Assembly: GCA_023143095.1 (NCBI GenBank)
Contig: JAGLIF010000002.1
Coordinates: 62,001-126,000, forward strand
Reading direction: 5' to 3'
DNA from: Candidatus Altimarinota bacterium
GTDB taxonomy: Bacteria > Patescibacteriota > Gracilibacteria > UBA4473
DNA: 64,000 nt
How positions within the stretch are numbered: the first letter of the stretch is position 1; the number at the start of each line of letters is the position of its first letter. A program made the translations under genes and the position numbers. Below the pieces are notes generated by a model. The model was not told the DNA's origin and searched no databases. It saw nothing but the letters and a program-made list of their open reading frames with translations. Shown here one piece after another: positions 32,791 to 45,886 of this stretch.

Positions 32791-35700
32791 ATGAAGAAGT
32801 TCTATTTTTTGTTTCTTAAATTTAAATTTATGAAAATCACATTTCAGTACAAGTTCATCGAGAGACTGTTTTTTTCTCTTGGAGGTTGTTTTTTTTTAGC
32901 AACCATTTTGTTATTTTCTCCTACTACTTATGCTGCTAATGGTGTAAATGTTATGCCAGTTAATATGGGTGGTATGGATGTGTATTTATCCGATACAACT
33001 GCAACGGCTCTTTTGCAAATAGATCTTTTTGATGAAGGTGGAGGAACACTTAACACAATTCAAGTTAATTTGGACAAAGATACTGGATGGCAAATGTTTG
33101 TTCCAACCAGTGATTTGGCTTTATTATCTGGAGACGCTAATGCGGGAATATCACTTTGGAAAGATAATGGAGATGGAAGTTTTGGTGCTGGGGATATACT
33201 TGTTGGAACTCAACCAACTGATTGGCCTTCTAGTCAAATTCAGGATTGCATGGAAACTTGGTTACTGATTTTTTCTAATATAGGGGTGCCAATTTCTACT
33301 AGTGCGACTTCTATGACAACTTTGTTTGTTGTTGGAAAAGCTGCTGTAGTAGATCAAACTCCAATTCATTCGTTTGGACCGCGAATTCCAATGGGTGGAA
33401 TTCAAACGAGTGGAGGATCTATTGGAAATTTTCCTTCAAATTGTGATATGCCGTTTTCTCCAGTTTGGCTGGGGCCTGTTGGAAGTGGTGGTGGTGGAAT
33501 GATGGGATCACCGCTTGCTATTTCTGAAATTCAAACAGCAGGAGGAATTGCTACTGACGAATTTATTGAATTGTATAGTCGTGATATGGAAGACTTTCTC
33601 ATGAGTGAAGAACCTCGGTTTACAATTGTTTATGAAGCGTGGAATAGTGGAAACTCTGAAGAAGAATTGCAAATAAAGGCTAATTGGGATGCTTCATTTG
33701 AAATAATAACAGGAACGATTCCAATAAATGGATTTTATTTATTAAAAAATGCAGGATATGACGGAGGAACTGTTGCGGATGCAACATACTCATTTTCGTT
33801 ATCAGAAAGTGGGGGATTTGTAGGTCTTTTTGAAGGTGAACAATTGGTTGATATGGTGGGATATGGAAATGCCACTGCTAATTTGGCTGAAGGTGGACAA
33901 GTTGCTCCAGCACCTTCTGCAAATGGTTCAATTGAAAGAAAAGCTTTTCCTGATTCAACGGCATCAAAAATGACAGGAACGGGGATTCATTCAAGCATGG
34001 GAAATGGAGAAGACTCACAAAATAATGGAATGGATTTTATTATTCGAACAACATCTGATCCTCAAAACACAGCTTCACAACCAGAATCAATGGGAGGAAT
34101 GGGTATGGGAAGTTTGATTCTTTTGAATGAAGTTTTTTACAATACAGATACGGGTCTTGGATGGATTGAAATTTTTAATCAAAGTGTAGGACCTGTAAAT
34201 CTTTCAGAGGGAACTGGCTGGAATATTAGTTCAAATGGAAAAACATATAGTTTTCCTGCAAGTGCAACTCTCTCTGCTGGTGCGTATGGGATTGTTTATT
34301 GGAATAAAACGGGAGATGATATTCTAACTAGCACTTTTTATACTGACGCAACTGTGGATACAGACATGGCAACCTTTGGAGGGGAAGTTGTTCTCAAAGA
34401 TGGGGCTGGAAATATTGTTGATTATGTGCAATATGGAGGAACTGGATTCACAAATGAATCAGCAGCTAATTCGGCAGGGGAATGGATGATTGGAGATAAA
34501 GTTCAATCAACACTTTATGGACAATCAATGGGGCGTCGTATGAATGATCCTGATTATAATTTTAGTGGTGATTGGCAAGTTTATAGTTCTCCAAGTCCTT
34601 TTATTCCAAATATGGGAGGAGATTCTACGGTTCCTACTGCTGTTTCAGAAGTAACTTTAATAGATAACGATACTGTTGCAAATAGCGGATTGAATGGTAA
34701 CGATTTAACGATTACTTGGACACCAGCTTCAACTATTGATCCTACTTTTGATAAATATGATATTTATATTTTACCAGAAGGAATTGCCCTTGATGATACT
34801 TCTCATTCACCAATAGATAGTATTTTTGGTGGGCAATATCAGTATAATTCAGAAGGGACGCGACTTTCGACTATATCTTATGCAGGAGCTCCATTTATTA
34901 CACACGACAGTGCTGATAATCTTCTTGATACAGGGAGTTATGTAACTTACATCGTAGGAGTTGATTTTGCAGGAAATAGTTCAGGAAGTGCAATGTCTTC
35001 TCCCTCAAGTTTAACTGCAGAAATTTATGATGCAGGAAGTGATGATCAAGGTCCTTTTATTATGCATATGGGAGTTTGGAACGCAAAAGCAGATGTTGCG
35101 ATGAATTTAATTGTACGAGCTGTTGATGATAGAGAAATTGATGCAACCAATCCTCTTCAAGTAGTGTATGATGTGAATGCTAGTGGTTCATGGACTGTTG
35201 CCGATTGTTCATTTCTTGATGCTGATTTTTATAATTGTCAGATTCCTTCACAAACCGCTGGAGCACAGGTGAGTTATTATTTGAAAGCAAAAGATGCAGC
35301 CACAACACCGAATTATTCTTATTTTTCAGCATCGCCTACTTCGGATATGAGTGGAATTGAAGATAATGTAAAAACGACTCCATTTGTAATTGAAATGCTT
35401 ACTTCTGTGGGAAATTATGATGATGATGGAACTGCTGTTGACTTGTCGGGAACAATTTATAAACCAGATGGAACGGCATTTCCTGATGATCAGTGGCCAA
35501 AAGTTTTTATTGAAGGAACTGCTACAGGAGTTATTACACCAAATAATGCTACAGGAATTTTCAATTTTCCAGATAATACACTTTTAGCAGGATCACAAAA
35601 TATGGTGATTTTTAAAGAAGGATACATGGACATGATGATAAATGTCTTTAAGGGAGACAGTGTTGATACTTACATGAACGAAGGAACGATGAATATGACT

Positions 35701-38700
35701 GGAGGAGGAGATAAACCATTTGTTACATGGACTGCTCCTGGACCTGGTATGATGGGAACACCAACTGATATTTTTTGTACTGGAGATTGTACTTCTTTTG
35801 GAATGGGTGAAATGCCAATTATTATTGGGTTTGATAAAACAATGAATGCTAATACCATCAATGATCAAGATGCATCAAATGCTGGATCAAATATTTATCT
35901 AACTACGAATGGACAAGATCGAATTGCTGGAAAGGTGCGATATGATGCTAGTATGAATGAAGCGATATTTTATGCGACAACACATAATTCTCTCAGTCCA
36001 GGAACATTTTATAATATTGTTGTGACCCAAGGGGTAACTGATATGGAAGGAAATCCGATTTTTGGAGATGGAGTTGGTGGGGCATTTGTAACTGGATTTA
36101 GTACAATGATGGATAATACTGATATGTGGGGAAGTGGAGGAGATGATTTTACAACTTTTGGTGGTGGAGGAATGATGATGCCACCATATGTAGTGGGTAC
36201 AATTCCTGCTTCAGGATCATTTGATATTCCGCTTAATAGTTCTGTAACAGTAGAATTTTCAGAACCAATGGATTCTAGTTCTATTAATTCAACAAATATA
36301 AAACTTTATCCAATTACAAACGAAGCAAATTGGACGATCGGAACATCAATTCCAGCAACTGTAACACTTGATCAGGCAACTCAGCGAATTGCAACTATTA
36401 CTCCAATAGATCCGCTTGTTGCCAATGTAAGTAATAATGGACGATATATAGTTCGTGTGATGGGGGCTGTAAAAAGCTCCATGGGTATTTGGATGATGAA
36501 TCCATCGATTTGTGGAGAAACTAATCCAGATATCTGTCTTGCAACACAAATGACTTATGAATCTGATTTCCAAGTATCAGGAATATCTGACAATATTGAT
36601 CCAACAATACAAGGAACATATCCGAAAAATAATGATACCAATGTTAATGTCGGATTACCATTTATTGATATTGGATTTAGTGAAGGAATGTCATCAGGAA
36701 CTATTACAGCTCAAAATATTACGCTAACATCAGGATCGACAGCTGTTTCTGGAAATGTGAAATATGATGCTATGAACAAAATGGCAAAATTTATTCCAAA
36801 TAATGCTCTTAGTGCGAATACTCAATATACGCTAACTATAGGAACAAATGTTGAAGATTTGGCTGGTAGAACACTTGCTTCTGCATACTTGGCAAACTTC
36901 ACAACAGGAGCTTCTGATACAGTTTCTCCAGAAGTAATGTATGCAAATGGAGATGATTATTCTTTGGCTGTTAGTTTTTCAGAGCCGATGAATGTTGCTC
37001 TACAAACAGATACAAATCGATGGGATTCATCTGTTTTGAATCCTGCTAATTACTATATAAATGGACTTGATAGCGAAGGGAGTTGGGCGGATAATCTTGG
37101 ATTAGTGGATCCGTACAATAATGGTGGGGGAAATCAATTGTCTGGTATTTCTGGACTTAATTTTACTTATGATGAAGGAACAATGACAGTGATTATTGAG
37201 GGATTTGCTTTTAGTGTAGATACTCCAGCTTTTCAAATATTTATTGATAATGTAAAAGATAAATCAGGGAATATTCTTACAGATACTGGGAATAGATCTG
37301 CTTCGGGGACACATAAGAATGCAGCTCGTGGACCACTGCTCAATAGTACTGAAACATTTGGATTACTTGGTCCTGGAGGTGGACCAGGAATAATGGGAGG
37401 TGGTGAAATGGGTCCCATAATGGATATGGATTCAATGGGAATGATGATGGCAGGGGCTTTTCCAATGAATGCAATGGCTGGTCAAACCAGTATGTATTTT
37501 GTTGATATTCCAACTACTAAGTCTATTCCTACAGGAGGAAAAATTCGACTTACTTTTCCTGCTGGATTTGATGTATCTGGTGCTGAAAAAGATATTTTTT
37601 CTCCAGTTAATAGCGATATTAATGAATGGAACGCTGGAACAATTACAATTACTTCAGTGACAGGAATACAAGCGTCTCGAACGATTGATATCATTACAGG
37701 AGGGGAAGCAACACAAGTTAATGATTTTCTTCATATGGATATTCAGGGTATTGTAAATTCTTCTATTCCAAAAGATTTTCAAACTTCAGGATATACAATT
37801 GATATTAAAACTTTCACAGCGGATGGAGCTTTATTAGAAACAATTTCTACGATGCCACTTTTTATTAATGAAGGGGGTTTACGAACGATTTCAGGAACGA
37901 TAACAGCTGCAGGAGCAACGACTGGAACGATGGAAGTGTATCTTGGATCACCAATGACTGGACCAATGGAAAGAACAGTAGATTTTGCCGCGCTTGGAAA
38001 TGGAACAGCAGCGTATTCATTTACAAATCTTCCAGATGGGGATTATCACATTTTTACCGAGCCATTTGTAACTTTAAATTCTATAAATTATGTGGGAAGA
38101 CAAATGCCAGAGCCGATTTGGGTTTCAGGGGGAGATTCAATTGGTAATGACTTTACTCTTTTAGCAGAAAATGTGGGAGCTAATGCAACAATTACAGTTA
38201 CTTTAACAGGAGATTTTAGTTCTGGAGGAATAGATGATAATATTGATATTTTTGCAAGTTCACCAAAGGGGTTTCGTGTAAAAACTGTGAATCCAAATGG
38301 AGATGATTCAGCTGGAGGTGATACTTCATTGGATACTGTTCAAGGTAATTATGTCACAAAATACAATCTTTTTCTTCCTGAAGGAGATTGGCATATTGGG
38401 ATTGGTCCAGCGATGCCAAAAGGAGCAATGATGGGTCCGCCAAAAATGCCTGATTGGATGCCACCAATGCCAGTAAAGTATAAAAGTATTGGTTCGGGAA
38501 CAGGAGAAGTTAGTGTTTCTATTTCTGGACAGGAGGTATCCAGAACTATTACTGGAATTGTACAAAATGATTCAGGAGTTGGTATTGCTGATGCAGAAGT
38601 ATATGCTTATCAACCAACAGGGGGATTTGGTGGATCAAATGCTAGAACAGCGGCAGATGGAACTTTTGTTTTGAAAATTCCGGTGCTTGGAACTTATGTA

Positions 38701-41700
38701 GTAGGAGCTTTTAAATCTGGATTACCAAATGGACAAGAACAAACTGTCAATGTACAAAATGATGTAACAGGAATAGTGTTTAAAATAAAAAAACCTGGAC
38801 AAACTATTTCTGGTAAAGTGCTCAATGCTCAATCACAACCAATTGCCTATGCTCCAGTTTGGGCATATCAAACGACAGGTTGGGGACATTCTAATACTAT
38901 GACTGATGCGACTGGTAACTATATCTTGTATGTTGATGATGGAACATGGAGTGTAGAAACAGATGCTCCTGGGGTAGGTTGGATGCAGTATGAAAGAGTA
39001 ATTACTATTAATAATGCTAGTGCTTCAAATATTAATCTCAAACCAGCCTCGGATACCACTTGGCGGACTATTTCTGGAACAGTGGGAATTGATACTGATG
39101 GAGCATATTCAACGGTTGAGACACCGTTTGCTAATATGCCAATAAGGGCTACAAAATATGATGCTACTGGAAATTATCTCGGATATGAATATGGAGGAAT
39201 GACAGATTCTTCTGGTAATTATAGTTTAAATGTAATTTCAGGTATTTACCGTGTGGATATTTGGAATCCAGATTATGGAGAACAAGGAATTAATAACCAA
39301 AATAATAATAATATACTTAACGAGCCTGCTGATGATTCATATACAAACAATCCAGCGAATGTTAATGCTTCTTCTGGAGATGTGAATAATGCTGATATTA
39401 TTATCGTAAATAGTGGTCTACGCACAATTACTTTACAATTTACTAATGGACAGGCGGATCAAGAAGGATTTGTGAGTGTTGAAGGAGTAACTTTTGATGG
39501 AAATAATGTTCCGACTCCAACTGGATTTCACAGGTCATTCCATGTGGGGGATTTGTCAGCTAGTACAACAATGAGATTAGGATCTGGAGATTATCTTTTC
39601 TTTTTGCAGGTTCCAACACTTGGGGAGTTAATTCCTATTGCTGATGATGGAACACTTGGAATGGATCCAATAAAGAAAGATATTGTAGTGGGTGGAATAG
39701 ATAGAACTGTTCAATTTACTTTGCCGGATGTAACTAATAGTGATGATGTCATTATCATAAATGGTACAATTAGCGGACCAACTGCAAACCAAAGTAATGC
39801 TTGGGTCTGGATTGGGAATCCCCAAACAGGATTTCACGCGGGTGTAGAATCAAATACGGTAACTGGAGCTTACTCAATTAAAGTACCAAAACTTTTATCG
39901 GGAAACTACTTTGTGGGATCAGATAAACCAAGTTTTGCTGCTGGTGAGCCAGTATCTATTACAGGAACGGTAGATACAATTGTGGATTTCACACTTACAA
40001 CATTGGATAAAACCATTTCAGGTGTTCTCTATGCTGATGCAAATAGCAATGGGTCTTATGATAGCGGAGAGGAAGTGCCAAATGGACGAGTTTTTGCTGA
40101 AACTAGCAATGGACTTAAGTCGTATGGTCCAGTTGATGGTACTGGAGCATATTCTATCAATGTAACATCTGGAACATGGAAAGTCTTTGGATTTGGAGAC
40201 GGATATATTCAAACGAAATATCCTGATGAGCTTGTGGTTGCTGGGTTGAGTTTAACGGGCAAGAATATCTCACTTTCTAGTGATGCTAATTGGAATAATG
40301 TACAAACTGCAAAACCAATTACACCAGCACAGGGTGGAAAAATTTCCGATACAGGACAAGCAACTGATGGAACGGCTTCTGGAACTGGGATGGAGCTCAC
40401 TTTTCCTCCAAATGCGTTGGGAAGTTCAAGTTCAAGTGGGAATGTAACTACAAAAAGGACAAATTCTGTTACAGGAACGAGTAGCATGGATCCGCTTACA
40501 GGAAAAGCGATTGAAATTACTGCAAAAGACAATTCTGGTCAGCCGATTACGAATTTGAGTAACTATGTTGATTTGGAAATGGTAATTTATAAAAAAGAAA
40601 TAGAAAACGATGGAATGCAAAATTTCAATAAACTTAAATCTATGAAAATTGGATATTGGGATGAAACCACCAATTCTTGGATTTATCTTGAGACAACAAG
40701 AAAAGCATACTATAAAGATACTGCTGATACTCAATGGACAATGTATAACGGAGATGGAATTGTTTCTGGATATGTAAAATTTATTACGGATGCACTTGTT
40801 GGTACTACTCCAACATTTGTAGAAGGTGTTGATTATGATGATTACAAATTTGTACTGAAAGCAAAGACAAATCATTTCACTGTTTTTGCTCCAGGTACTG
40901 CTCCAGATGGAGTAGTTCCTTCTGCTCCTACTGGATTAATTCAATCTTCTGGAAATGGAACAAATGTTGGACTTAGTTGGAATGCGGTAACAACAAATGT
41001 TGATGCTTCTGTGATTACTGATCTCTATGGATATGCTGTTTATAGATCTATTGATGGAACAACTTATTCGCAAGTAAATACTTCAAATATTCCAGCAGGA
41101 ACTGAAACATATACAGATAGTACAACTACTGCTTGGACTAGTTATTATTACAAAATTACAGCTGGAGATGATGATAATCTTGAATCGGCATATTCTACTA
41201 ATATTCAAAGTTGTTCTAACAAATCTGTAAGCAACGGAACGGTTGCTGGTAATTGTACAATTACTTGTAATTCAGGATATGTTTTAAGCGGGAAAAGTTG
41301 TCTTTCTTCTGGAGGGGGTAGTGTTGGAGGAGGAGGTGGTGGAGGGGTTTCAATGTATAGAACTTACAATACAATTCCTTCTTATACATTATCAAATAAG
41401 GAATCAATTCGTAAATTGGATTTGGTAGAACCAATAAATCTTATTTTTTCTGGAGGAGTATTTACTCGACCAGTTCAATTAAAAAATCTTTATACAGGAA
41501 CTGTTGTTGAATTTAGCAAAGGAACGGTTGTTAAAAATGATGAAGGAAATGTTTTTAATAATATTATTATTATTCCAAAACCATTAGTTCAAACTCAAAT
41601 TCCAGTACTTCCTGAAGGTTTATCAATGATTAAAGGTTTTAAATTAGGATCTGTTGAAGATGAACCTCTTAGTTTTTCCAAAGCGTTTACACTTAAAATT

Positions 41701-42528
41701 CCAATTAATAAAAAAGTTGTAAAATCTCAAAATATTAAAGTAATTACCTATGATAAAACAACTCAAAAATACAAGTTAGCTGGAGATGGTGGTATTTTTG
41801 ATGATAAATTGATTACTGTTGAAACAGATCATATGTCTTACTTTGTAGTTGTAGATACAGGTGGAAAAAATTTAGATTTTTTATTGGAAACTGCGGACAA
41901 AACTGTTTTAGAAACTAGTGAAGAAATATCTGACACACTTATCTCGATAATTGAACGCAAAGTTCCAACTTTTGTTTCAGAACCAGCAATGGAATTTAAA
42001 GATATTAAAGGACATTGGGCAGAAACTTATATTAGTGATATGCGAAGACGAGGGGTTGTTCAAGGAAAAAAAGAAGGTCAATATGAACCAGATTCAGGGC
42101 TTTCAAGAGCAGAATTAATGAAAATTGTAATTAATGCCTTTGGAATCCCACTTGATGAAGTGAATGTAAAACCATTTCCTGATGTTAGTCTTCAAAAATG
42201 GTATACTCCTTTTATTTCTACTGCGAAAAAATACGGGATTATAAATGGTTATCCAAACGGATTTTTTAAACCAAATAATCCAATTTCTCGAGTAGAAGCT
42301 TTGAAAGTTATAATCAATACAGCTGGACAGAAAATGGAAAGTGAAGGTCTAAATAATCCATTTTTCGATATTCCAGAAAATGCTTGGTATACTTCATATG
42401 TTAAGTTTGCAAATAGAAGGGGGCTGCTTGATCCAGTAAGAAAAGGTCATTTCTTGCCAGCTAAAACAATTACTCGTGGAGAAATTTCGAAAGTAATTGT
42501 GAAACTTTGGCGAATAATGCAAGACTAA
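32791..42528 (+). CDS. Giant multi-domain SLH surface protein (3245 aa)
   Basis: Signal peptide within residues 15-49 (FFLATILLFSPTTYAA); start at 32791 or ATG 32833. Domains in order, rough positions: lamin-tail-like at about 240-400 (AISEIQTAGG) and 440-600 (LILLNEVFYN); fibronectin-type segment from about 610; SbsA-type Ig-like (Big_5) units at about 975, 1127, 1270 and 1379 (PASGSFDIPLNSSVTVEFSE); five or more carboxypeptidase-regulatory-like units at about 1700-2480 (RTISGTV, TDSSGNY); a ZU5-like segment near 2513; fibronectin type III at about 2708-2800; Gly linker at 2842; three SLH domains at about 3068-3245. SLH domains bind secondary cell-wall polymer, so this is anchored at its C terminus. 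Met/Gly-rich linkers separate modules. No frameshift; likely adhesin or S-layer component. Confidence 0.88.
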   Translation: MKKFYFLFLKFKFMKITFQYKFIERLFFSLGGCFFLATILLFSPTTYAANGVNVMPVNMGGMDVYLSDTTATALLQIDLFDEGGGTLNTIQVNLDKDTGWQMFVPTSDLALLSGDANAGISLWKDNGDGSFGAGDILVGTQPTDWPSSQIQDCMETWLLIFSNIGVPISTSATSMTTLFVVGKAAVVDQTPIHSFGPRIPMGGIQTSGGSIGNFPSNCDMPFSPVWLGPVGSGGGGMMGSPLAISEIQTAGGIATDEFIELYSRDMEDFLMSEEPRFTIVYEAWNSGNSEEELQIKANWDASFEIITGTIPINGFYLLKNAGYDGGTVADATYSFSLSESGGFVGLFEGEQLVDMVGYGNATANLAEGGQVAPAPSANGSIERKAFPDSTASKMTGTGIHSSMGNGEDSQNNGMDFIIRTTSDPQNTASQPESMGGMGMGSLILLNEVFYNTDTGLGWIEIFNQSVGPVNLSEGTGWNISSNGKTYSFPASATLSAGAYGIVYWNKTGDDILTSTFYTDATVDTDMATFGGEVVLKDGAGNIVDYVQYGGTGFTNESAANSAGEWMIGDKVQSTLYGQSMGRRMNDPDYNFSGDWQVYSSPSPFIPNMGGDSTVPTAVSEVTLIDNDTVANSGLNGNDLTITWTPASTIDPTFDKYDIYILPEGIALDDTSHSPIDSIFGGQYQYNSEGTRLSTISYAGAPFITHDSADNLLDTGSYVTYIVGVDFAGNSSGSAMSSPSSLTAEIYDAGSDDQGPFIMHMGVWNAKADVAMNLIVRAVDDREIDATNPLQVVYDVNASGSWTVADCSFLDADFYNCQIPSQTAGAQVSYYLKAKDAATTPNYSYFSASPTSDMSGIEDNVKTTPFVIEMLTSVGNYDDDGTAVDLSGTIYKPDGTAFPDDQWPKVFIEGTATGVITPNNATGIFNFPDNTLLAGSQNMVIFKEGYMDMMINVFKGDSVDTYMNEGTMNMTGGGDKPFVTWTAPGPGMMGTPTDIFCTGDCTSFGMGEMPIIIGFDKTMNANTINDQDASNAGSNIYLTTNGQDRIAGKVRYDASMNEAIFYATTHNSLSPGTFYNIVVTQGVTDMEGNPIFGDGVGGAFVTGFSTMMDNTDMWGSGGDDFTTFGGGGMMMPPYVVGTIPASGSFDIPLNSSVTVEFSEPMDSSSINSTNIKLYPITNEANWTIGTSIPATVTLDQATQRIATITPIDPLVANVSNNGRYIVRVMGAVKSSMGIWMMNPSICGETNPDICLATQMTYESDFQVSGISDNIDPTIQGTYPKNNDTNVNVGLPFIDIGFSEGMSSGTITAQNITLTSGSTAVSGNVKYDAMNKMAKFIPNNALSANTQYTLTIGTNVEDLAGRTLASAYLANFTTGASDTVSPEVMYANGDDYSLAVSFSEPMNVALQTDTNRWDSSVLNPANYYINGLDSEGSWADNLGLVDPYNNGGGNQLSGISGLNFTYDEGTMTVIIEGFAFSVDTPAFQIFIDNVKDKSGNILTDTGNRSASGTHKNAARGPLLNSTETFGLLGPGGGPGIMGGGEMGPIMDMDSMGMMMAGAFPMNAMAGQTSMYFVDIPTTKSIPTGGKIRLTFPAGFDVSGAEKDIFSPVNSDINEWNAGTITITSVTGIQASRTIDIITGGEATQVNDFLHMDIQGIVNSSIPKDFQTSGYTIDIKTFTADGALLETISTMPLFINEGGLRTISGTITAAGATTGTMEVYLGSPMTGPMERTVDFAALGNGTAAYSFTNLPDGDYHIFTEPFVTLNSINYVGRQMPEPIWVSGGDSIGNDFTLLAENVGANATITVTLTGDFSSGGIDDNIDIFASSPKGFRVKTVNPNGDDSAGGDTSLDTVQGNYVTKYNLFLPEGDWHIGIGPAMPKGAMMGPPKMPDWMPPMPVKYKSIGSGTGEVSVSISGQEVSRTITGIVQNDSGVGIADAEVYAYQPTGGFGGSNARTAADGTFVLKIPVLGTYVVGAFKSGLPNGQEQTVNVQNDVTGIVFKIKKPGQTISGKVLNAQSQPIAYAPVWAYQTTGWGHSNTMTDATGNYILYVDDGTWSVETDAPGVGWMQYERVITINNASASNINLKPASDTTWRTISGTVGIDTDGAYSTVETPFANMPIRATKYDATGNYLGYEYGGMTDSSGNYSLNVISGIYRVDIWNPDYGEQGINNQNNNNILNEPADDSYTNNPANVNASSGDVNNADIIIVNSGLRTITLQFTNGQADQEGFVSVEGVTFDGNNVPTPTGFHRSFHVGDLSASTTMRLGSGDYLFFLQVPTLGELIPIADDGTLGMDPIKKDIVVGGIDRTVQFTLPDVTNSDDVIIINGTISGPTANQSNAWVWIGNPQTGFHAGVESNTVTGAYSIKVPKLLSGNYFVGSDKPSFAAGEPVSITGTVDTIVDFTLTTLDKTISGVLYADANSNGSYDSGEEVPNGRVFAETSNGLKSYGPVDGTGAYSINVTSGTWKVFGFGDGYIQTKYPDELVVAGLSLTGKNISLSSDANWNNVQTAKPITPAQGGKISDTGQATDGTASGTGMELTFPPNALGSSSSSGNVTTKRTNSVTGTSSMDPLTGKAIEITAKDNSGQPITNLSNYVDLEMVIYKKEIENDGMQNFNKLKSMKIGYWDETTNSWIYLETTRKAYYKDTADTQWTMYNGDGIVSGYVKFITDALVGTTPTFVEGVDYDDYKFVLKAKTNHFTVFAPGTAPDGVVPSAPTGLIQSSGNGTNVGLSWNAVTTNVDASVITDLYGYAVYRSIDGTTYSQVNTSNIPAGTETYTDSTTTAWTSYYYKITAGDDDNLESAYSTNIQSCSNKSVSNGTVAGNCTITCNSGYVLSGKSCLSSGGGSVGGGGGGGVSMYRTYNTIPSYTLSNKESIRKLDLVEPINLIFSGGVFTRPVQLKNLYTGTVVEFSKGTVVKNDEGNVFNNIIIIPKPLVQTQIPVLPEGLSMIKGFKLGSVEDEPLSFSKAFTLKIPINKKVVKSQNIKVITYDKTTQKYKLAGDGGIFDDKLITVETDHMSYFVVVDTGGKNLDFLLETADKTVLETSEEISDTLISIIERKVPTFVSEPAMEFKDIKGHWAETYISDMRRRGVVQGKKEGQYEPDSGLSRAELMKIVINAFGIPLDEVNVKPFPDVSLQKWYTPFISTAKKYGIINGYPNGFFKPNNPISRVEALKVIINTAGQKMESEGLNNPFFDIPENAWYTSYVKFANRRGLLDPVRKGHFLPAKTITRGEISKVIVKLWRIMQD

Positions 42529-42534
42529 TAAAAT

Positions 42535-42572
42535 AAAAGATAACCTAGGATTAGTGTTCTAGGTTATCTTTT
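42535..42572. terminator. Strong bidirectional terminator
   Basis: Perfect 14-bp arms AAAAGATAACCTAG and CTAGGTTATCTTTT with a 10-base loop. It separates the giant gene from the convergent serC. Confidence 0.88.
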
Positions 42573-42589
42573 GTTAGTTTATTCAGAAT

Positions 42590-43684
42590 CTACTTTATGT
42601 GAAAAGCCTTTTTTAAAACACTAGAAAGCAGTTTAATATCTTCTATTGTGATGGCAGGGAAATTACAGATACGAAATGTGGTTGGTTTTAGTTTTCCATA
42701 TCCAGTTCCCATATGAATATTGTTTTCTTTGCATACTTGGTGGATTTTTGCGACAGTGGCTTCGTCTGATTTTGCACAAACGAGCGAAATAGAAGAGTCA
42801 TTTCGGTTCTTTATAAATGTCGTTATATTAGGCAGGGAATCTAGTAATTCATAGATTTTTGCAATTTTGATTCGAGTTTCTTTTTCCATTGTTGGTAAAC
42901 CGCCTTTATCTATAAATCGTTGAGTTTGTTGTCCCAATAGATAAATATTTAAAACATTTGGGGTGGCAATGGTGTTATAGTTTTTGAGCATTTTATTGAC
43001 ATTTTTTTCTATGCCAAATGCACCTATTGGATTAATGCCTTGTTGGTGTAAATCTCTGGATTTTTCCCATACTTTTTGGTTAACGACCATTATCCCAAGA
43101 CCTGCGGGAAGTCCAAAACATTTTTGAACTGACCAAAGCCAGATATCGGCTTGTTTGATATCAATATCGATAACTCCCATGATGGAGGTGGCGTCAACGG
43201 CTATGAATTTTTCGGGATATTTTTTTCGGATATTTTTAATATCTTCAGGTGAAACCATACATCCTGTACTGCTTTCGCATTGAGTAATTGTGATGAGTTC
43301 TGCTTCGTTTGGAACATCTTCTGTGTAGTCGTTTTTTGTTCCCCAAACAGCTTTTTGGTAGAGTGGTTTTTTGTGTAGATCTTTTGCAAGTTTGATAAAG
43401 TATTCTGAGAAATTACCATTGGTGAAATGGAAAGAAGTTTCTTTTACTGTACTTCTAATAGCTAGTTCCATTGCTTCGATGGCAGAACCTAGAAATAAAA
43501 CATGCCAGTGTCTTGGAATTTTTAAGAATGTCTTTAAGTTTTCTACTGCGAGTTGGCTGATGGAACAAAATTCAGGACTTCGGTGACTGATTTCTAAGAT
43601 TTTGGTGTCGATGGCGTTTGTAATGTCTTTTTTGACTTCTGGACATATTTTTGAGGGACCGGGTGTAAAGGTTAAATCAAACAT
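42590..43684 (-). CDS. serC: Phosphoserine aminotransferase-like class V aminotransferase
   Basis: Converts 3-phosphohydroxypyruvate to phosphoserine. 364 residues. TFTPGPSKICPEV begins the protein; HRSPEF and LFLGSAIEAMELAI follow; VDATSIMGVIDID contains the PLP-contacting aspartate and WSVQKCFGLPAG the Schiff-base lysine (K188). The C-terminal small domain is present. The fold alone also fits serine-pyruvate or alanine-glyoxylate aminotransferases; the assignment to SerC rests on being the third gene after serB and serA. The gap to serA is 25 bases. Confidence 0.88.
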   Translation of the reverse strand: MFDLTFTPGPSKICPEVKKDITNAIDTKILEISHRSPEFCSISQLAVENLKTFLKIPRHWHVLFLGSAIEAMELAIRSTVKETSFHFTNGNFSEYFIKLAKDLHKKPLYQKAVWGTKNDYTEDVPNEAELITITQCESSTGCMVSPEDIKNIRKKYPEKFIAVDATSIMGVIDIDIKQADIWLWSVQKCFGLPAGLGIMVVNQKVWEKSRDLHQQGINPIGAFGIEKNVNKMLKNYNTIATPNVLNIYLLGQQTQRFIDKGGLPTMEKETRIKIAKIYELLDSLPNITTFIKNRNDSSISLVCAKSDEATVAKIHQVCKENNIHMGTGYGKLKPTTFRICNFPAITIEDIKLLSSVLKKAFHIK

Positions 43685-43709: not shown

Positions 43710-44954
43710 TTAGAAAAGTTCTCTAGCTCGAATAGTTCCTGGGATGTTCTTTAATTTTTTAAGAAGATTATCGTTCCCTGTGGCAACTGTTTCTGTATCG
43801 AAAACTACATATCCGATTTGATCGTTGGTTTGTAAATATTGTCCAATAACATTAATTCCGACTTTTAAAAAGAGTTCATTGATTGATTTCATCACGCCAG
43901 GTTTGTTTTCATGAATATGTAAGTATCGATTATGACTTTTATCTAGAATTGGAAGGCTTACTTTTGGAAAATTTACTGTTGAGTCTGTGTTTCCAAGATT
44001 ACTGTAATCGATTAATTTATGTGCTGTGTTGATTCCGATGTTTTCTTGAGCTTCAATGGTTGATCCGCCTATATGAGGAGATAAAATTACATTATCTAAA
44101 TTTTGAAGCGGTGATTCGAATTTTTCTTCTTTTGATTTTGGTTCTTTTGGGAATACATCGATAGCTGCTCCCAGAAGGTGTTTGGATTTTAGCGCGTCAG
44201 CCAAAGCTTCAATATCAACTACGGTACCTCTTGAAGCATTGATAAGATGACTTCCTTTTTTCATTTGTCTGATTTCTTTATATCCAAACATGTTTTGGGT
44301 CTGTTTTGTGTTGGGAACATGAAGTGTGATGAAATCACTTTTGTTTAGCAATTCTTTGATTGTTTTTATAGATTGTGCGTTTCCAAGAGAGAGTTTTCGC
44401 TCGATGTCATAGTATAAAACTTTCATTCCCATGGCTTCTGCTAAGATACCAGTTTGTGATCCAATGTGTCCGTATCCAATAATTCCAACGGTTTTTCCTC
44501 GAACTTCAAATGCATTATGGGAGTTTTTGAGCCATTCACCTTTATGAGCGGCTGTGCTGCGGTGTGGAATTCCTCGTATAAGCATAATCATTTCTCCTAT
44601 AACGAGTTCAGCAACGGAACGGGTGTTTGAGTAGGGGGAATTGAAAACAGGAATGCCGAGTGATTTTGCTATTTCTAGATTGACTTGATTGGTTCCAATA
44701 CAAAAACATCCGATGGCGATTAGTTTTTTAGCGACTTTAAGTACTTTTTCGTTGATTTGTGTTCGAGATCGGATCCCGATGAAGTGGTATTTTGGAATAA
44801 TTTTTAAAAGTTCTGCTTCTGGGAGTGCGTGTGTGTAATAGTCAATTTGTGTATATCCATCATCATTGAAGGCTTCAATCGATTTTTTGTGTACTCCTTC
44901 CAGTAATAAAATTTTTACTTTTGATTTTTCGAGAGAAAATGTTTTGGTGCTCAT
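43710..44954 (-). CDS. serA: D-3-phosphoglycerate dehydrogenase with ACT domain
   Basis: First committed step of serine synthesis: 3-phosphoglycerate to phosphohydroxypyruvate. 414 residues, the length of E. coli-type SerA. NAD-binding GYGHIG at about 160-165; RSRTQINEKVL and GTNQVNL form the substrate part; the catalytic Arg lies in NASRGTVVD, the Glu a little after, and His in LSPHIGGSTIEAQ. The C-terminal ACT domain (about 338-414, NKPGVMKSINELFLKVGINV) is where serine binds in relatives to give feedback inhibition. Its start overlaps the serB stop by 4 bases, so translation is coupled. Gene order is serB-serA-serC. Confidence 0.95.
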   Translation of the reverse strand: MSTKTFSLEKSKVKILLLEGVHKKSIEAFNDDGYTQIDYYTHALPEAELLKIIPKYHFIGIRSRTQINEKVLKVAKKLIAIGCFCIGTNQVNLEIAKSLGIPVFNSPYSNTRSVAELVIGEMIMLIRGIPHRSTAAHKGEWLKNSHNAFEVRGKTVGIIGYGHIGSQTGILAEAMGMKVLYYDIERKLSLGNAQSIKTIKELLNKSDFITLHVPNTKQTQNMFGYKEIRQMKKGSHLINASRGTVVDIEALADALKSKHLLGAAIDVFPKEPKSKEEKFESPLQNLDNVILSPHIGGSTIEAQENIGINTAHKLIDYSNLGNTDSTVNFPKVSLPILDKSHNRYLHIHENKPGVMKSINELFLKVGINVIGQYLQTNDQIGYVVFDTETVATGNDNLLKKLKNIPGTIRARELF

Positions 44955-45823
44955 GATAAAAGTTTTTTTAAGAATTGATTGAATTCGTTGATTTTTGTAA
45001 AGAAATAAGGAGTTCCGTTTTGAACAAGTTGGCGTTGTGCGTAAACACTAAATCCGATGAATAAATCAGCGACTCCTTGTGTCAAAACTTCTAAATCGCT
45101 GGCACCATCGCCAATCATGATAATGTCACCTTGGAGCATTCCAGAACTTCGAAGAGCTTGGATGAGTTTTGGTTTTCCGCCGTTTTGACATAATGGATTT
45201 TCGGTCATAAATCCAGTAACATACCCGTTTTTATTAAATATAAATTGGTTTGCAAAAATTTGTGATGTCGGAATTTTAGTGGATTGAGATAGAGAGACCA
45301 CCCATTCTGAAAATCCTCCAGAGATAATAAAAACGGATTGGCCTTTTTTTTGAAGATCATGAATGCATTTTTGCATTTCAATTTCAATTGATGGACATTG
45401 GTTAAGATAATTTTGAATATCGTTTTTATGTAGTTTTGCGAAATTGAGTCTTTGATTGAGTGATTCACTAAGTGTTATTTTTCCTTCCATTCCTTTTCGG
45501 CAAATGTCTTCAATATATTTTATTTTTTTGTCTTTTTTTGGATCATTTTTGAGTGTAAGTTTGAGGATTTCATCCAGAGTTTCGTGTGGAAAAAGAGTCG
45601 AATCAAAATCGAAGATGAAAGTATTGTATTTATGATTAAGTTTCGGTTTTTTACACTTTTTTAAAAAAACGATAAGGTCGTTTTTTTTGTATCGTCGATG
45701 TTTATTTCCACTGTCTCGTATTGCAGGTAAAATTCCTTGATGATCCCATCTTCGGAGAGTGATAATAGATTTTCCGAGGAAGTATGCAGCTTCTGCTGGA
45801 GAAAGTAATTTTTCTTTATTCAC
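44951..45823 (-). CDS. serB: MerR-type HTH fused to phosphoserine phosphatase
   Basis: 290 residues, GTG start. Residues 7-55 are a MerR/excisionase-type winged HTH (LSPAEAAYFLGKSIITLRRW, HRRYKKNDLIVFLKK). Residues about 66-290 are a HAD phosphatase of SerB type: motif I FDFDST (nucleophile D72, acid D74), KGMEGKITLSESLNQRL, motif II SGGFSEW (S168), K217/K219, motif III GDGASDLEVL (238-247). SerB normally lacks a DNA-binding domain; here it replaces the ACT-type N terminus. All catalytic motifs are intact, so it should dephosphorylate phosphoserine. First gene of serB-serA-serC; a 17-bp inverted repeat and promoter lie immediately upstream. Inferred: enzyme and autorepressor in one. No MerR dimerisation helix is seen; the phosphatase part might dimerise. 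Confidence 0.88.
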   Translation of the reverse strand: MNKEKLLSPAEAAYFLGKSIITLRRWDHQGILPAIRDSGNKHRRYKKNDLIVFLKKCKKPKLNHKYNTFIFDFDSTLFPHETLDEILKLTLKNDPKKDKKIKYIEDICRKGMEGKITLSESLNQRLNFAKLHKNDIQNYLNQCPSIEIEMQKCIHDLQKKGQSVFIISGGFSEWVVSLSQSTKIPTSQIFANQFIFNKNGYVTGFMTENPLCQNGGKPKLIQALRSSGMLQGDIIMIGDGASDLEVLTQGVADLFIGFSVYAQRQLVQNGTPYFFTKINEFNQFLKKLLS

Positions 45824-45825
45824 AT

Positions 45826-45873
45826 TTCAAATCTTATCATTTTTGTTTTCCGTGTCAAATGATAAGGTTTGAA
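45826..45873. promoter_or_regulatory. 17-bp inverted repeat, candidate operator of serB-serA-serC
   Basis: Arms TTCAAATCTTATCATTT (45826-45842) and AAATGATAAGGTTTGAA (45857-45873) match with one mismatch and are separated by 14 bases. The repeat begins 3 bases from the serB start codon. It overlaps both candidate promoters. It would also fold as an RNA hairpin in the leader, so attenuation or start-site masking is an alternative. Confidence 0.7.
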
Positions 45874-45886
45874 TTAATTATCTCAA
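45859..45886 (-). promoter_or_regulatory. Promoter of the serine operon
   Basis: On the minus strand TTGAGA (45881-45886), 16-base spacer, TATCAT (45859-45864); the -10 lies in one arm of the inverted repeat. A second candidate, TTGACA (45853-45858), 16 bases, TAAGAT (45831-45836), would give a nearly leaderless mRNA. Confidence 0.55.

Follow-up and report, generated by a model that had tools for sequence, protein, structure and literature searches.

A phosphoserine phosphatase fused to a winged helix-turn-helix domain, with a conserved candidate operator before its own serine operon

The first gene of a serB-serA-serC operon in the window (the whole stretch of 64,000 nucleotides analyzed here) encodes a phosphoserine phosphatase domain joined to an N-terminal winged helix-turn-helix (HTH) domain, and an inverted repeat lies directly before its start codon. 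We consider it likely that the product is a bifunctional, autoregulating phosphoserine phosphatase, a “trigger enzyme” that holds its own operon down by predicted binding to this candidate operator. The co-occurrence of fusion and candidate operator in three divergent genomes makes one-protein autoregulation well supported at the level of sequence comparison.

Architecture of the fusion protein and its operon

The fusion gene heads the operon and overlaps serA by 4 bases (Table 1); this order and overlap, proposed in the first-pass annotation, match the coordinates of the open reading frames. Pfam assigned residues 6–57 of the fusion to HTH_17 (31.9 bits, cutoff 27), residues 9–45 to MerR (30.7 bits, cutoff 28.2), and residues 70–247 to HAD (44.4 bits, cutoff 27). 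A PDB sequence search matched residues 61–280 to human PSP and a Francisella PSP-like protein, with E-values from 3e-26 to 3e-30. The fusion scored 82.4 bits with TIGR01488 (cutoff 45) and 99.7 bits with the serB equivalog TIGR00338, which is below the cutoff of 144.15 and leaves it outside the curated SerB definition. We thus regard the phosphatase domain as a divergent SerB, whose identity rests on operon context and the best structural match and not on curated family membership.

Table 1. Coordinates in the window of the operon, the fusion domains, and the candidate control elements
Feature	Position	Strand	Remarks
HTH-SerB fusion gene	44951..45823	-	290 aa, GTG start
MerR/BldC-type winged HTH domain	45653..45808	-	residues 6-57; Pfam, AF2, Foldseek
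Phosphoserine phosphatase (HAD-IB) domain	44954..45628	-	residues 66-290; catalytic residues intact
Candidate operator, promoter-distal arm	45857..45873	.	core half-site 45859-45871, CAAACCTTATCAT on - strand
Candidate operator, start-proximal arm	45826..45842	.	core half-site 45828-45840, ATGATAAGATTTG on - strand
Putative sigma-70 promoter TTGACA-16-TAAGAT	45831..45858	-	consensus match only
serA, phosphoglycerate dehydrogenase with ACT-like domain	43710..44954	-	NF008759, 628 bits
serC-like class V aminotransferase, operon end	42590..43684	-	ORF list and profile matches

Catalytic positions were transferred through the PDB-search alignment from the residues that we take to be catalytic in human PSP. 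The corresponding Asp-72, Asp-74, Ser-75, Glu-81, Arg-109, Ser-168, Lys-217, Asp-239, and Asp-243 are invariant in an alignment of all three known fusions. The catalytic motifs and HAD-IB fold of SerB are present in the fusion, and phosphoserine hydrolysis is the predicted activity. The full-length AF2 model, built on a three-row alignment, had a mean pLDDT of 76.6, and in a Foldseek search of this model the phosphatase domain was closest to human PSP (6hyy; TM 0.86 by target length).

The HTH domain, modeled by AF2 from an alignment consisting mostly of relatives from ATPase-like proteins, reached a pLDDT of 80.6. Its best fold matches in Foldseek were the BldC-DNA complexes 6ama and 6amk, with further matches to HiNmlR, RacA, and SoxR, placing the modeled domain closer to BldC than to classical MerR. 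Both the dimerization coiled coil and the effector domain that follow the HTH in MerR are absent, and about 10 residues link the HTH to the phosphatase domain. The recognition-helix region reads SIITLRRWD in the window fusion, and SI[IV]TLRRWD is common to all three fusions. Together, the Pfam matches and intact catalytic residues uphold the first-pass reading of a MerR-type HTH and a complete SerB HAD domain in one chain.

At the far end of the operon, a 26-nt inverted repeat (42523–42584) lies between serC and a convergent gene for a 3245-aa surface protein and is probably a terminator common to both. As judged by eye, the product of the latter gene (32791–42528, + strand) looks secreted, contains many repeated domains, and has SLH-like repeats at its C terminus.

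Fusions in other genomes

Recurrence of the fusion in relatives, which the first-pass annotation had named as a check on its proposal, was found twice: a search of 353 genomes of the class returned two more full-length fusions. One (G005, locus L002), taken as Ca. Gracilibacteria HE327_NSB042, belongs to another genus of the same family as the window genome, and the other (G188, locus L008), taken as Ca. Peribacteria RIFOXYB1_FULL_54_35, belongs to a different family. They share 39 and 37% identity, respectively, with the window fusion, and both genes lie directly before serA, which is followed by serC. Maximum-likelihood analysis grouped the three fused phosphatase domains in one clade (support 100/99), for which a single origin is the simplest reading. 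About 1.5–1.9 changes per site separate its members, so that a short site conserved among them is not recently shared DNA.

Outside this clade, all SerB domains found in 380 genomes sampled evenly from the phylum and two other classes were HTH-less, and viral and plasmid collections yielded no relative of the fusion. A contig scan with a single protein as the query gave no match; with an alignment as the query, it returned the two fusions already known. The three fusions all come from draft or metagenome-assembled genomes; a gene-calling artifact or chimeric assembly is ruled out by the two independent homologous fusions. TGA is recoded in part of this bacterial group. Recoding was rejected for the window genome because the 3245-codon open reading frame in the window contains no in-frame TGA. 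A SerB-like frame in another genome (L029, G038) carries eight in-frame TGA codons, the pattern expected if TGA encodes glycine, as it does in part of the group. Outside the class of the window genome, three loci (L038, L040, and L041 in G497, G389, and G370) encode SerB and SerA together in a single 624-aa frame, apparently another fusion within the serine pathway.

A dyad encloses the putative promoter before serB

The inverted repeat, whose coordinates in the first-pass annotation were confirmed (Table 1), has 17-nt arms that are 94% complementary and a 14-nt loop, and it lies directly before the GTG start. It was unmatched in 1000 dinucleotide shuffles and is among the best inverted repeats of the 64-kb window when arm length and identity are taken together. 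The layout is CAAACCTTATCAT-N18-ATGATAAGATTTG, with the proximal core beginning 17 nt before the GTG; half-site centers are about 29 bp apart, which is wider than in MerR dyads. The putative promoter, with a TG preceding its -10, sits inside the dyad. The first-pass annotation had placed the dyad over both of its promoter candidates. This was correct for the second (45858–45831), which is fully covered; of the first, only the -10 is covered, and the -35 (45886–45881) lies outside. Judging from promoter spacing, transcription would start at about the GTG, in which case the message would be leaderless.

The half-site ATGATnAGTTT, which across the fusions can also be written ATGATnAG(A/T)TTT, occurs at the same place in all three fusion genomes, with cores 17–18 bp apart and the proximal core beginning 16–17 nt before the start codon. 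The layout is GAAAACTGATCAT-N18-ATGATAAGTTTTG in G188 (proximal core 16 nt before GTG) and AAAAACTAATCAT-N17-ATGAGTAGTTTTT in G005 (17 nt before ATG). Both dyads were scored with the half-sites of the window alone. The G188 dyad matched at 22 of 26 positions, its gap being 18 bp, and none of 2000 shuffles was as good at any place; the G005 dyad, with a gap of 17 bp, matched at 19 of 26, which 35 of 2000 shuffles equaled or exceeded at any place. When scoring was confined to the expected position relative to the start codon, shuffles as good numbered 0 of 5000 for G188 and 2 of 5000 for G005, whose site is the weaker one when taken alone. In G188, where the local GC content is 52%, little of the spacer that separates serB from the preceding gene lies outside the candidate operator. 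A chance palindrome is ruled out by the shuffles together with this conservation.

An HTH-less serB occurs in many other genomes, and no dyad above shuffle level was found at any of 21 such unfused genes. Eleven of these lie directly before serA and provide a natural control for the fused operon; the unfused serB operons within the same family likewise had no dyad. The palindrome that the first-pass annotation had suggested looking for upstream in relatives is thus present in both fusion-bearing relatives and at 0 of 21 unfused loci. The feedback loop that it proposed is borne out in part: this distribution supports autoregulation, and control by a ligand is a plausible proposal.

A consensus of the window and G188 sites, with up to three mismatches allowed, matched a single site in the window genome. 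A wider regulon in the same genome was rejected, as no second site was found within three mismatches. The G005 site is also unique within G005. Across the 353 class genomes, three sites had two mismatches or fewer, namely those before serB in the window and in G188, which match partly by construction because the pattern is the consensus of both, and one before ftsE in G346. This last site (L063:1501–1540), where an ftsE-like gene begins, is a perfect dyad with the layout AAACTGATCAT-N18-ATGATCAGTTT; G346 carries no SerB fusion, and we regard the site as chance or unexplained. Sites with exactly three mismatches numbered 15 across the class, and a reversed control pattern gave 9 at three or fewer; such scattered sites are what chance predicts.

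Relatives of the HTH domain on ATPase-like proteins

HTH_17 domains of the same type occur elsewhere in the class (L018–L031) joined to a C-terminal part that we call ATPase-like from its motifs, Pfam giving the HTH alone. At least one such gene is followed by a DUF4325-like gene, with a borderline score. Upstream of 15 such HTH genes, a 10-bp periodicity stood out (z = 10.0), and periods of 20–21 were also raised. Directly before the start codons of HTH-ATPase-like genes we noticed tandem 10-bp direct repeats with units like TAGATTTACC, for example upstream of 1495 in L031 and upstream of 311 (- strand) in L024. These look like autoregulatory operators in the style of BldC, which binds direct repeats (PMC5859096), and HTH domains of this type may commonly regulate their own genes through repeats at the start. 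The SerB fusion may use an inverted pair in place of direct repeats.

Proposed mechanism and alternatives

In the mechanism that we propose, the phosphatase domain would make serine and also bring the N-terminal winged HTHs into pairs. The paired HTHs would bind the two half-sites of the dyad that encloses the putative serB-serA-serC promoter, and the bound protein would block RNA polymerase and so limit the output of the operon. Occupancy of the active site by phosphoserine or serine would act as the switch, with the phosphatase as the sensor; by analogy with enzymes of the PutA type, either compound is a plausible signal for DNA binding. We favor repression because one half-site is placed immediately ahead of the -35 and the other over the -10/start, where binding should exclude RNA polymerase. 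Lacking the MerR coiled coil, the HTH has to be paired by the phosphatase domain or by the DNA. A bulky bridge would be compatible with the 17–18 bp between cores, although this spacing is no proof of it. Points that weigh against the mechanism are the small number of fusions (three), the weaker site of G005, the half-site spacing wider than in MerR dyads, the dyad before ftsE in G346, and a promoter that is a consensus match only.

The phosphatase domain could instead be mainly a sensor with little catalysis, in the manner of the kinase-like domain of BzdR, operator binding being retained and another phosphatase making the serine. The divergent, subcutoff SerB score points this way, as do two changes beside the active site in G188 (SNG for SGG and FCG for FAN). 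However, none of the three fusions has lost a catalytic residue, the gene heads serB-serA-serC, and a fusion-based query found no second SerB in the window genome or in G188, and we regard this alternative as unlikely.

The protein might also bind the dyad as a MerR-like activator that untwists the promoter, given that its HTH belongs to the MerR superfamily, whose MerR proteins bind promoter dyads. MerR-activated promoters have a spacing of 19–20 bp, whereas the spacing here is about 16–17 bp; instead of falling between the hexamers, the half-sites cover the -10/start and border the -35. The missing dimerization coiled coil and a fold closer to BldC likewise make untwisting an improbable mechanism, and we judge activation of this kind quite unlikely.

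A further possibility is that the palindrome forms an RNA hairpin in the leader, as an attenuator or a translational control, and that the HTH has another role. As RNA, the window dyad folds well (z = -5.0) and the dyads of the other two fusions fold less well (z = -1.8 and -2.8), and some arm changes are symmetric. Yet the loop of the hairpin would be long, a U-run is missing, there is no ribosome-binding site for the hairpin to mask, and a transcript from the best promoter, inside the dyad, would miss one arm. Sequence, spacing, and position of the dyad are kept beyond what mere pairing needs, and the dyad appears only where the HTH is present. We therefore hold a hairpin to be very improbable. 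Least probable of all is that some other regulator uses the dyad, the HTH being a passive accessory, a reading left some room by the predicted nature of protein-dyad binding but opposed by the HTH being the feature that divides the three fused loci with a dyad from the 21 unfused loci without one.

Beyond autoregulation itself, we suggest tentatively, at slightly under an even chance, that an active phosphatase senses the occupancy of its own active site and, through one dedicated operator, adjusts how strongly the entire serine pathway is transcribed. On the same reading and with the same reserve, this complete enzyme-feedback unit would occur together with its operon among small-genomed Patescibacteria. 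If SerB is its own operator-binding regulator, it would suit reduced genomes as a compact solution and would illustrate cleanly how an enzyme can recruit a DNA-binding domain and keep its catalytic residues. The idea is easy to test, since the protein and its candidate site are defined, and so are natural controls that lack the fusion.

Comparison with known systems

Control of the serine pathway is usually described as feedback through ACT-domain enzymes together with separate regulators. In the open-access literature that we searched, we found no description of a DNA-binding SerB combining an HTH and a phosphoserine phosphatase. In classical SerB with N-terminal ACT domains, such as mycobacterial SerB2, the same catalytic domain carries an N-terminal regulatory domain, but there it is an amino acid–binding ACT domain and not a DNA-binding HTH.

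Two marks of a trigger enzyme are found in the fusion: enzyme and DNA-binding domain share one chain, and a conserved candidate site lies at a gene of its own pathway. It resembles PutA, BirA, and NadR of E. coli, each of which is a metabolic enzyme whose DNA-binding domain targets genes of the enzyme's own pathway, and differs from them in having a HAD phosphoserine phosphatase and another HTH type; the ligand switch is proposed here by analogy with PutA-type enzymes (PMC8249747). DNA binding by PutA is limited to its own putA-putP spacer (PMC8249747). BzdR joins an HTH to a shikimate kinase–like domain that has lost its activity, whereas the catalytic residues of the fusion are intact and its candidate target is the operon of the enzyme's own pathway. 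The closest fold to its winged HTH is that of Streptomyces BldC (6ama and 6amk), which also has no MerR coiled coil. BldC is a free protein of 68 residues that binds in a head-to-tail arrangement to direct repeats of 9 bp (PMC5859096), whereas the winged HTH described here is fused to an enzyme and faces an inverted-repeat site with 17–18 bp between its cores.
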